DNA from: Blastococcus atacamensis | GTDB lineage: Bacteria > Actinomycetota > Actinomycetes > Mycobacteriales > Geodermatophilaceae | Direction of reading: 5' to 3' | Assembly: GCF_002938425.1 (NCBI RefSeq) | Contig: NZ_POQU01000014.1 | Coordinates: 1-60,022, forward strand | DNA length: 60,022 bases | Part shown: positions 7,932 through 52,648 of the stretch, piece after piece | Layout: each line of letters begins with the position of its first letter | Numbering within the stretch: position 1 is the stretch's first letter | Translations under genes and position numbers: made by a program | Notes under the pieces: model-generated | The model's input: only the letters and a program-made list of their open reading frames with translations | What the model was told of the DNA's origin: nothing | The model's database searches: none

Positions 7932-10826
<2,895 letters not shown>

Positions 10827-10864
10827 CGTGGGGCTCCCGTGGGGGTCGAACCGGCGGCGGGCAG

Positions 10865-10890
10865 AAAAAAACCCCTCACGCAGGAGGGGT
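10865..10890 (-). terminator. Intrinsic terminator in the leuS leader (attenuator)
   Basis: On the minus strand a 7-bp stem ACCCCTC/GAGGGGT with a 6-nt loop is followed at once by a run of T. A U-run terminator is unusual in this GC-rich window and sits about 40 nt before the leuS ATG, where it would stop leuS transcription. Confidence 0.8.
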
Positions 10891-10928
10891 CGGCCGTGCT
10901 GTCTGGACGTTCTCCGTCAGCACGGCCG
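10891..10928 (-). promoter_or_regulatory. Perfect 11-bp hairpin in leuS leader (pause or alternative structure)
   Basis: Arms 10891-10901 and 10918-10928 pair without a mismatch around a 16-nt loop. The 5' arm (minus strand) overlaps the last codons of the leader peptide. The 3' arm runs directly into a GCCGACC that can instead pair with GGTCGGC inside the peptide's Gly-Arg codons. Alternative pairing is therefore possible, as attenuation requires. Confidence 0.65.
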
Positions 10929-10952
10929 GCGAAGCAGGAGCCGACCGGTCAC
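10917..10952 (-). CDS. leuS leader peptide with Leu-Leu-Leu
   Basis: Eleven codons from GTG to TGA reading VTGRLLLRRPC. Codons 5-7 are CTC CTG CTT, three different leucine codons in a row. A TAGGCT -10 box 7 nt upstream makes it the leaderless first frame of the leuS transcript. The stop lies in the downstream hairpin. By analogy with amino-acid leader peptides, a ribosome stalled on the leucine codons when Leu-tRNA is scarce would change the folding and let RNA polymerase pass the terminator. The peptide and its codons are visible; the mechanism is inferred. Confidence 0.7.
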   Translation of the reverse strand: MTGRLLLRRPC

Positions 10953-10959
10953 AGACCAG

Positions 10960-10965
10960 AGCCTA
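10960..10965 (-). promoter_or_regulatory. -10 box TAGGCT for the leuS leader
   Basis: TAGGCT on the minus strand, 7 nt before the leader-peptide GTG; the same spacing recurs at lipB and other leaderless genes here. Confidence 0.5.
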
Positions 10966-11088
10966 CCGCCTGGACGCGGCGCCGTGACCGGCCGTTCCAC
11001 GACCGCCGCCTGGTCCCGCTCCCCCGTTCGGGCGAGGCGGTGCCGTCCCAGCCTCCCGCGGGGATGTGCTGCGACCGATGACGTCCGG

Positions 11089-13416
11089 GTGGCAGGACAC
11101 CGGACCCAGCCGAGCAGCGATCGCGTCCCCGCGACCGCGGGGCTGCTGCTGGCGTGCCTGCTGACCGTCGCCGCCCACGCCACCGGCCTCCTGGGCCGGC
11201 CGGACGGAGTGGCAGCCACCGTCGTCTACGACGTGGTGCTCTACAACGGGGCCTACCTGCTGGCCGCGCTGGCGTGCCGGCGTACCGCGCTGGCCCGCCG
11301 GCAGGAACGGCTGGTGTGGAACGCACTCGCGGTCGCGCTGTCCGTAGGGGTGGCGGGGACGCTGCTCTACGTCCTCGTGCTGGTGCCGGTCCTCGGCGAC
11401 GTGCCGACGTGGCTGCTGGTCACCCTCTGGGCCCCGGCCTATCCGGCCATGGGGGTCGCCCTCCTCGGCGTCGTTCGCTCCCGGGTGGGCCCCACCCACC
11501 CGAGCATGTGGCTCGACGCGCTGACCGCTGCCTGCGGCGCGGTGATCTTCGCCCTCACCCTCCTGCCGTCGCTCGAGTCCCTCCCCACCGAGGGTTCCCT
11601 CGCCGTCCTCCTGCACCTCTATCCCGTCGCCGACACGATCCTGCTGGCCGCCGTCGCCGCGGTGTGCGCGGTCATGGGGTTCCGCCGGGACTGGCCGCTG
11701 GTGCTGCTCGTCGCCGGGCTGCTGTGCACGTTCGCCGCGGACTCGTGGTTCGTGACCGCCGTGGCCGAAGGCGACCGGTCCGCGTCACCGGTGCTCGACT
11801 CGATCTGGATCGCCGGAGCGGCTTTCGCGGCCGCTGCCGCCCACGTCGCGGGGCGTTCGCCCCGGCCCGTGCCGGCCGAGGCCGACCCGATGGCACGGGC
11901 CGGCTGGCGGGTCGCCGTCGTCCCGCTCGGGTCCAGCGTCATGGCGCTGGCCGTCCTCGTCTCCATCTGGGGCACACCGCGCCTCGGGCTGCTCGGGTGG
12001 TCGGCCATCACCTGTCTCCTGGCGACCCTGGCCCGCACCGCCATGTCGGTCCAGGAGTTCCGCGGTCTGCACGAGTTCCGCGCTCAGGCCCGCACCGACG
12101 AGCTGACCGGCCTGCCCAACCGCCGGGCACTGCTGGAGCGGGTGCGCCTGGCGCTGACCAACGGAGGCGGCCGGCCGGTCGCACTGCTCCTCCTGGACCT
12201 GGACGGCTTCAAGGAGATCAACGACAGCCTCGGGCACGCCGCGGGCGACGACCTGCTGCGCCAGGTGGGCCCGCGGTTGTGGCCCGACCTGGTGTGCGGG
12301 GAACTGCTGGCCCGGTTGGGCGGCGACGAGTTCGCCGTGCTGCTGCCCGGAACGGGTCTGGACGCCGCCATGGCGCGGGCCGAGCAGCTGCGCGCCCGTC
12401 TTCTGGAGCCCTTCGTCGTCCACGGCGTCCGCCTGCACGTCGGGGTGAGCGTCGGCATCGCCACCGGTCCCGTGCCGGCGAACACGGTGAGCGAGCTGCT
12501 CCGCTGCGCCGACGTCGCGATGTACGCGGCGAAGAAGGCGCGGGACGGGGTGCGCACCTACGTGCCCGAGGCCCGCGACGGGGACGGCGACCGGCTCCGG
12601 ACCATGGAGGACCTCCGGACGGCGCTCGACGACGACCAGCTGGTCGTGCACCTGCAGCCCCAGGTGGCGCTGCACGGTCGCGCGGTGGTCGGCGTCGAGG
12701 CGCTGGTGCGGTGGCAGCATCCGGAGCGCGGGCTGCTCTCCCCCGCCGTGGTCCTGCCGGCGGCCGAGCAGGCCGGGCTCATGCGACCCCTCACCACCAC
12801 CGTGCTCGGGCTCGCCCTCGACGCGGCCGCCCGGTGGTGGCCGGAGCGGGCGGTGCCCGTCTCGGTGAACCTCTCCGCCGCGAGCGTGATCGACCTGGAC
12901 CTGCCGGCGACGGTGTCCCGCCTGCTGCACGACCACGGGCTCCCCCCGGAGGCCCTCACCCTGGAGCTGGTCGAGGACACCCTCATGGCCGATCCCGACC
13001 GCGGTCGCACGGTGCTGAGCGAGATGCGCAGGTTGGGCGTCCGCTCGTCGATCGACGACTACGGCACCGGCTACAGCTCGCTCGCCTACCTCCGGCACCT
13101 GCCGGCCGACGAGCTGAAGCTGGACCGGGGCCTCACCCACGACGTGGGGCGCGACGAGCGGGCGACGGCGATCGTGCGGCACACCGTCGCGCTCGCGCAC
13201 GACCTCGGCCTCACCCTGGTCGCGGAGGGCGTGGAGGACGAGGAGACGGCGGCCGCGCTGACCGCGCTCGGGTGCGACGTCGCGCAGGGCTGGGCCATCG
13301 CCAGGCCGATGCCGGTGGAGGACTTCCTCGGCTGGCTCGCCGACCGCCCCGCGCCATTCCCCGGCACGCCGGCGGTCCCCGCTCCGCGGACGCCGGCGCA
13401 GCACCTGCACCTGTGA
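11089..13416 (+). CDS. Membrane GGDEF-EAL protein (diguanylate cyclase/phosphodiesterase)
   Basis: About 775 residues. The N-terminal ~300 residues form roughly eight hydrophobic segments with no recognised sensor domain. A GGDEF domain follows (LTGLPNRRALL, LLDLDGFKEIND, intact signature RLGGDEF near 411), then an EAL domain with EALVRW (near 536), SIDDYGTGYSS and EGVED. Both catalytic signatures are intact, so it may make and break cyclic di-GMP. The start is uncertain: GTG 11089 is chosen because the first membrane helix follows closely, but GTG 10984 is also in frame and no clear ribosome site supports either. It is divergent from the leuS leader. Confidence 0.88.
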   Translation: MAGHRTQPSSDRVPATAGLLLACLLTVAAHATGLLGRPDGVAATVVYDVVLYNGAYLLAALACRRTALARRQERLVWNALAVALSVGVAGTLLYVLVLVPVLGDVPTWLLVTLWAPAYPAMGVALLGVVRSRVGPTHPSMWLDALTAACGAVIFALTLLPSLESLPTEGSLAVLLHLYPVADTILLAAVAAVCAVMGFRRDWPLVLLVAGLLCTFAADSWFVTAVAEGDRSASPVLDSIWIAGAAFAAAAAHVAGRSPRPVPAEADPMARAGWRVAVVPLGSSVMALAVLVSIWGTPRLGLLGWSAITCLLATLARTAMSVQEFRGLHEFRAQARTDELTGLPNRRALLERVRLALTNGGGRPVALLLLDLDGFKEINDSLGHAAGDDLLRQVGPRLWPDLVCGELLARLGGDEFAVLLPGTGLDAAMARAEQLRARLLEPFVVHGVRLHVGVSVGIATGPVPANTVSELLRCADVAMYAAKKARDGVRTYVPEARDGDGDRLRTMEDLRTALDDDQLVVHLQPQVALHGRAVVGVEALVRWQHPERGLLSPAVVLPAAEQAGLMRPLTTTVLGLALDAAARWWPERAVPVSVNLSAASVIDLDLPATVSRLLHDHGLPPEALTLELVEDTLMADPDRGRTVLSEMRRLGVRSSIDDYGTGYSSLAYLRHLPADELKLDRGLTHDVGRDERATAIVRHTVALAHDLGLTLVAEGVEDEETAAALTALGCDVAQGWAIARPMPVEDFLGWLADRPAPFPGTPAVPAPRTPAQHLHL

Positions 13417-52235: not shown

Positions 52236-52648
52236 ACGACGGACGAGTCGACCTGTACGCCGGGTTCTGTCCACGGGTGCCTTGCGGCCTCCCGATGGGC
52301 GGTCATCCATCTAGGCCTGCCGTTGCCGGCAGGCTCGAGCGATCTACCCGCAGGCTCGGGCGGGCCGCCCTCGAACGCCTGCGCAGGACGGCGGCGAACC
52401 GTCGTCCCTTCTTGATCTAGCTCCGGGTGGGGTTTACCGAGCCACACCGGTCGCCCGGTGTGCGGTGGTCTCTTACACCACCGTTTCACCCTTACCAGCG
52501 CGAGCGCTGGCGGTCTGTTCTCTGTGGCACTGTCCCGCGGGTCACCCCGGGTCGCCGTTAACGACCACCCTGCCCTGTGGAGCCCGGACGTTCCTCGGCG
52601 ACGGGGTCTCCCCCGCCGACGCGACCGCCCAGCCGACTCGTCCGTCGT
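52236..52648 (-). ncRNA. rnpB: RNase P RNA, class A
   Basis: 413-nt catalytic RNA that trims tRNA 5' ends. Read on the minus strand it has the universal GAGGAA-CGTCCGGGCTCCA core and CAGGGTGGT, the conserved ACAGTGCCACAGAGAACAG and GGTAAGGGTGAAACGGTG, the GTGTAAGAGACC block, TAGATGGATGACCGCC and, near the 3' end, ACAGAACCCGGCGTACAGG. The two ends pair as a 15-bp P1 helix (52236-52250 with 52634-52648), which fixes the boundaries to within a few bases. Confidence 0.95.

Follow-up and report, generated by a model that had tools for sequence, protein, structure and literature searches.

In the trp operon of Escherichia coli, the attenuator is built of control codons, a hairpin that overlaps the leader's end, and a terminator. 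Attenuators of this type, known also from Corynebacterium and Streptomyces (PMC1262725), share these three parts with the leuS leader described here, but they have an antiterminator that is mutually exclusive with the terminator, and none was found at our locus. For leuS itself, Seliverstov et al. (2005; PMC1262725) predicted attenuators of the classical kind in S. coelicolor and S. avermitilis. Thus, an attenuator on leuS rather than on leucine biosynthesis, a point raised in a preliminary description of the present locus, is not new. In S. lividans, a peptide termed LeuL2 with the sequence MRAVRLLLSEPR was reported from RNA-seq to be encoded by a leaderless transcript 5′ of leuS (PMC8079986). 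The three-hairpin attenuator of C. glutamicum ilvBNC also has a near-leaderless leader with branched-chain codons including CUU, but its terminator and antiterminator overlap, whereas the hairpins abut in our case (PMC11857589). The leuA LEU element of actinobacteria likewise contains a Leu-codon leader, but it uses a pseudoknot and Shine-Dalgarno pairing and belongs to another gene (PMC1262725). leuS does not appear in the main text of two further articles (PMC4833913; PMC11109978).

The locus described here lies in the window, that is, the whole stretch of 60,022 nucleotides analysed from Blastococcus atacamensis (contig NZ_POQU01000014.1). Its element can be aligned with the Streptomyces leuS attenuator over the leader, a hairpin (H1), and a terminator stem-loop (T), so that the kind is already known and, as judged from this alignment, the two are homologous. 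Of the features given by Seliverstov et al. (2005) and for LeuL2, three are found: a short leader ORF with a Leu run, a hairpin and U-run terminator before the gene, and leuS as the gene. The relatives share this downstream protein with the window. Most of the Streptomyces-type leaders that we recovered encode exactly the LeuL2 peptide within the same architecture, in which a leader with a Leu triplet, a hairpin, and a U-run terminator stand directly 5′ of leuS. There are differences as well. The Streptomyces peptide ends in EPR and that of the window in RPC, and the H1 loop is shorter in the window. Seliverstov et al. (2005) speak of an antiterminator hairpin (PMC1262725), whereas no conserved hairpin overlapping T was found here.

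Anatomy of the leuS Leader

All parts of the element are on the minus strand of the window. A −10 box, TAGGCT, can be read at 10965-10960, 7 nt 5′ of the leader start. The leader ORF (10952-10917) runs from GTG (10952-10950) to TGA (10919-10917) and encodes VTGRLLLRRPC in 11 codons; its transcript is probably leaderless. Codons 5-7 are the Leu control codons CTC CTG CTT (10940-10932). H1 (10928-10891) is a perfect 11-bp inverted repeat in the window, compared with 9 bp in the family consensus, and is supported by sequence, folding, and covariation. Its arms are CGGCCGTGCTG (10928-10918) and CAGCACGGCCG (10901-10891), and the 5′ arm contains the 3′ end of the leader ORF. T (10890-10871), supported by folding and covariation, directly abuts H1 with the stem ACCCCTC (10890-10884) / GAGGGGT (10877-10871). 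H1 and T touch without a spare base because G10891 can pair in either, as the 11th pair of H1 or the 8th pair of T; in the minimum free energy (MFE) fold, it is the 8th pair of T. Seven T residues follow (10871-10865), the first of which also closes the T stem, and just past them is a stretch (10864-10856) conserved in the family and class comparisons. The presumed regulated gene, leuS (7932-10826, ATG at 10826), presumably encodes leucyl-tRNA synthetase (LeuRS), as judged from its sequence. The −10 box, the reading frame, the three different Leu codons, the 11-bp hairpin, and the terminator are all present as listed in the preliminary description.

The RNA of this region, for which the same description had pointed to folding as a check, folds better than shuffled versions. 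For 10950-10862, the MFE is −43.7 kcal/mol, whereas shuffles give −30.9 ± 3.1 (z −4.1), none of the 200 being as good; for 10952-10863, z is −3.2, and 2 of 200 shuffles are equally good.

A T-box riboswitch was considered and rejected, since no T-box match was obtained either in the Rfam scan of the window at gathering scores or in 10800-11000 at E ≤ 5. In the window scan, no family reached its gathering score in the vicinity of the leuS leader, and the eight matches at E ≤ 5 in 10800-11000 are all far below gathering scores. The only gathering-level match in the window is a bacterial RNase P class A RNA at 52240-52640 (minus strand). On the plus strand, a divergent ORF is listed at 10828-13416, the later part of which resembles, by eye, a GGDEF-EAL protein. 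In this form the ORF overlaps the leuS leader on the opposite strand, so that its true start is probably further in.

Conservation in Geodermatophilaceae

Blastococcus, Geodermatophilus, and Modestobacter belong to Geodermatophilaceae. A search with the LeuRS N-terminus matched 111 of 112 genomes of this family, including that of the window. This gave 111 leuS upstream stretches from 110 other genomes, one of them with two copies, and together with the window 112 sequences representing 108 distinct regions. The genome with two copies (G054) has leuS and its leader on two contigs (L084 and L142) with equal N-terminal scores and identical leader regions, which is either an assembly duplicate or a recent duplication.

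A leader with a start codon, a Leu run, and a stop codon was recognised by script in 110 of the 112 upstream regions. In one exception (G003, locus L034), which belongs to the genus of the window, a one-base insertion breaks the frame while H1 and T remain; the loss may be real, or it may come from a sequencing error. In the other (G032), the leader reads LEL, without adjacent Leu codons. At least two consecutive Leu codons are found in 110 of the 112 leaders, the longest run being three in 80, four in 18, two in 12, and one in 2. In 109 of 112 regions, a TAnnnT box precedes the leader start by 6-7 nt, as compared with 0 of 2240 control offsets, and the three misses are sequences of genus g7 in which the script chose an internal start. 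The spacing of the −10 box, in the window as in the family, would fit a leaderless transcript, as reported for the S. lividans homologue. The family comparison is thus in favour of what had been proposed, a likely leaderless Leu-codon leader with a hairpin and terminator 5′ of leuS. Loss of the Leu codons or of the frame in relatives, which would have spoken against it, is confined to G003 and G032. At the level of sequence, most of the leader element is seen to be under selection when it is compared with the 111 other leuS upstream regions in the family.

Base pairing was examined in an alignment of 62 family sequences, consisting of the window and 61 hand-chosen from the 111 relatives. Pairing is kept in 98.8% of cells in H1, 99.8% in T, and 99.2% in both together. 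In H1 and T, 13 cells are changed on both sides and the covariation score is 0.067; not one of 500 shuffles reaches either of these values or the 99.2% pairing. Further pair types are no more numerous than usual in these 62 sequences (8 vs. 6.9, matched by 117 of 500 shuffles). In a class-wide alignment of 64 rows, which was fitted to the covariance model and so leans to it, 97.9% of H1 and T cells are paired and 101 are double-changed (0 of 500 shuffles); in three of these rows, only part of the near-palindromic H1 is matched, and on the reverse strand. The preliminary description had proposed to look for covariation of two pairings. H1 indeed covaries, as does T, whereas the pairing of GGTCGGC (10946-10940), in the leader, with its complement GCCGACC (10894-10888) is without conservation.

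The distance between H1 and T was measured in 68 diverse sequences, comprising 39 of 40 short stretches from the class, 17 other loci, and 12 family members. The GCC that begins 5 nt past the last Leu codon was taken as the anchor for the 5′ arm of H1, with the 3′ arm left free; an earlier run had confined the 3′ end of H1 to near T, and this limit was lifted in the repeat given here. The gap is 0 nt in 43 sequences, 1 nt in 14, and between −2 and +2 nt in 64 of 68. The outliers are one gap of 3 nt, one of 13 nt, and two sequences without an H1 helix. Conservation of the leader, the Leu codons, H1, T, and their spacing is shown by these alignments.

Conservation extends beyond the T-run. The word found there is NTG[TC]CCGCC-like in most of the family and TGTCCGG-like in many other sequences (including L196-L235). 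Positions +9 to +16 past the T stem carry 0.48-1.37 bits vs. 0.04-0.27 at +19 to +40 (69 sequences, among which D231 is misplaced). Of 68 diverse sequences, 32 have the pattern T[GT][TC]CNGG between +8 and +18; in the two stretches that follow, it is present in 1 and 0 of them. Neither frame nor start codon at this word is conserved in the 112 family sequences. A second upstream ORF after T, starting past GAGGGG and with a stop overlapping the leuS ATG, was rejected as a conserved ORF: its frame ends in ATGA in 66 of 112 (a few not at leuS), has no stop in the stretch in 41, and ends otherwise in 5, with the start codons ATG in 44, CTG in 34, TTG in 32, and GTG in 2.

Distribution in Actinomycetes and Linkage to leuS

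A covariance model built from 39 sequences was used to scan the class at E ≤ 0.01; the filters applied cost some of the weak matches. It matched 167 of 394 Actinomycetes genomes, in 69 of the 137 genera sampled, and its single match in the genome of the window is the leuS leader. Linkage to leuS was checked in two subsets of these hits. leuS is downstream on the same strand in all of the 30 best-scoring loci with flanks. In 40 short diverse stretches from other hits, leuS is seen downstream in 32 with E ≤ 0.01 and in a total of 36 when the limit is set to E ≤ 1; the other 4 show no leuS in the brief sequence beyond the element. A scan of the phylum with a terminator pattern matched 15 of 396 genomes; some of these matches are unrelated, and the scan yielded the Streptomyces-type loci.

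Conversely, 80 named leuS loci were inspected, and the element is present in 55 of them: 42 from Streptomyces, 6 from Blastococcus, Geodermatophilus, and Modestobacter, 2 from Brachybacterium, and 1 each from Streptantibioticus, Kibdelosporangium, Amycolatopsis, Glycomyces, and Lentzea. Among the 25 loci with no match are those of Mycobacterium and allied genera, Nocardia, Corynebacterium, and Bifidobacterium, and also those of Acidimicrobiaceae, Janibacter, Arcanobacterium, and several MAGs. Thus, leuS can do without the element. By its distribution as a whole, the element turns out to be old and widespread in related bacteria. A survey by Lopatovskaya et al. in 2010 reportedly covers attenuation in amino acid and aminoacyl-tRNA operons and may list more leuS cases, so that no novelty is claimed for the spread as such.

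Leucine Codons and tRNA

Codon positions were counted back from the conserved Pro codon in 111 family leaders, G003 being excluded. The last Leu codon (position −3, codon 7 in the window), which lies 5 nt 5′ of H1, is Leu in 111 of 111; it is CTT in 94 and CTC in 17, and never CTG. Position −4 (codon 6) is Leu in 110 of 111 (CTG 55, CTC 46, CTT 9), and codon 5 in only 88. In the 68 diverse leaders, the last Leu codon is CTT in 61, CTC in 6, and CTG in 1. CTT is rare otherwise, with 19 of 1422 Leu codons (1.3%) against 855 for CTG in 31 ORFs of the window selected by GC3, which serve as the background here in place of the whole genome. Among 46 of the 47 tRNA hits of the genome that were scanned, there is one tRNA-Leu gene each with the anticodons TAG, CAG, GAG, TAA, and CAA. 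Both CTC and CTT are decoded by the tRNA-Leu with the GAG anticodon. Sensing of more than one Leu isoacceptor, as suggested in the preliminary description from the three different codons, is possible, but the codon that is fixed is CTT or CTC, read by the GAG tRNA.

The tail of the peptide, P-C or P-R, reflects the RNA rather than the peptide, because the H1 arm persists in the 10 of 68 diverse leaders in which a TAG stop directly precedes it.

A Terminator Predicted to Lack a Conserved Competitor

The longest helix between leader and terminator is 3-5 bp in 110 of the 112 family sequences, no better than with shuffled leaders. Only the window and G070 have one of 7 bp, and that of G070 is in another register. 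A scan of the 62 aligned family sequences for conserved helices that compete with T gave, beyond H1 and T, only short ones, mostly without double changes. The exceptions with double changes are two helices of 4 bp, CACG:CGTG and GGCG:CGCC, the latter extending beyond the T-run.

A ribosome covers the RNA up to 15 nt downstream of the first base in its P-site codon. Its presence was modelled by removing the 5′ part of the leader for three ribosome positions: on the first and on the last of the Leu codons, and at the stop. T keeps at least 5 MFE pairs in 67 of the 68 diverse sequences with no ribosome, and in 68, 66, and 67 with the ribosome at these three positions, respectively. Neither the family nor the 68 diverse sequences revealed, by prediction, a conserved structure incompatible with T. 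Since T stays folded at the modelled ribosome positions and has no conserved competitor, a classical antiterminator mutually exclusive with T, such as that of trp-type attenuators, is predicted to be absent.

Possible Modes of Action

We consider it quite probable that the element, a homologue of that of Streptomyces, attenuates leuS transcription by way of the ribosome and in response to leucine, with H1 hindering T. It would probably raise leuS output when charged Leu-tRNA is short, and leucine sensing by the leader is likely. Transcription would start at or beside the GTG, and a ribosome would translate the short leader. With ample Leu-tRNA, the ribosome would pass the Leu codons to the stop and cover the 5′ arm of H1; T would then act and most transcripts would stop before leuS. 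With Leu-tRNA in short supply, most critically the GAG isoacceptor for CTC and CTT, the ribosome would wait on the Leu codons, H1 would form, T would be weaker, and leuS would be transcribed. We infer the ribosome positions on the leader and, with more reserve than for any other step, how H1 weakens T. The reasoning is as follows. Ribosome position can change only H1, so that H1 should carry the signal; if starvation is to raise leuS, H1 would have to either weaken T or pace the polymerase, and the first is favoured. No conserved pairing competes between H1 and T, and it is therefore proposed that H1 acts by abutting the base of T. Standing flush with this base, it may hinder full closure of T inside the exit channel of RNA polymerase, or it may act via pausing. 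One observation is against this sign of action. The best kept Leu codons are 6 and 7 (110 and 111 of 111), those nearest to H1, and a ribosome at codon 7 would already cover the first nucleotides of H1, so that the proposed sign fits worse there than with a wait at codon 5. As a more specific and only tentative picture, this may be an attenuator that works without a competing antiterminator, in which the ribosome sets H1, the flush H1 controls T either sterically or through polymerase pausing, the rare CTT is the sensor, and a conserved DNA or RNA word lies just beyond the site of release.

The opposite role for H1 we regard as rather doubtful. H1 would aid termination like the trp 1:2 pause hairpin, pausing the polymerase in the T loop for the ribosome to catch up, and a ribosome stalled on CTT would break H1. 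The distance from H1 to the T loop suits a hairpin pause, and the most conserved codon is this CTT, 5 nt before H1. The consensus for pausing is G−10…Y−1 G+1. A similar word is present in the T loop in 104 of 112 family sequences vs. 776 of 2240 shuffled versions of the same 17-mers, a count made on related sequences with a loose pattern. By eye, the word is absent in a number of other families, and a role in pausing leaves the prevention of T unexplained.

It is improbable that the leader is a translated short ORF followed by a constitutive partial terminator with no response to leucine. The ilvB and leuA leaders of S. coelicolor, when mutated, did not behave like classical attenuators (PMC1262725), which would fit such a case. 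Against it are the Leu identity kept under synonymous drift, the retention of the rare CTT, and the cognate gene downstream.

A short antiterminator formed by CACG in the 3′ arm of H1 and CGTG in the T loop is still harder to accept. In the 62 family sequences, 93% of its cells are paired and 4 are double-changed, but it has only 4 bp against an 8-bp terminator, it is broken in at least 9 family genomes by eye, and the T loop varies in other families.

The antiterminator of the preliminary description, in which T would be blocked by pairing of the leader's GGTCGGC with GCCGACC, can hardly hold: it is perfect over 7 nt in the window, and G026 and G035 retain 5 bp, but all seven pairs form in the window only (1 of 62 aligned rows), two of them in 13 and 3 rows (the latter because most genomes are without the extra C), a stalled ribosome would itself cover GGTCGGC, and the MFE fold retains T instead.

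Concluding Remarks

As far as the comparisons of leader regions go, the window contains a real, conserved, leucine-coded attenuator of leuS, of a known kind. What was in 2005 a prediction for two Streptomyces species is now a conserved element in 69 of 137 sampled Actinomycetes genera, the anatomy of which is precise. Its parts of note are the abutting arrangement of the two hairpins, which many actinobacterial families share, and the kept CTT. If the abutting hairpins replace a competing antiterminator, this would be a different route by which a ribosome controls termination. In actinobacteria, the leuS leader could also find use as a natural reporter for the charging of Leu-tRNA.
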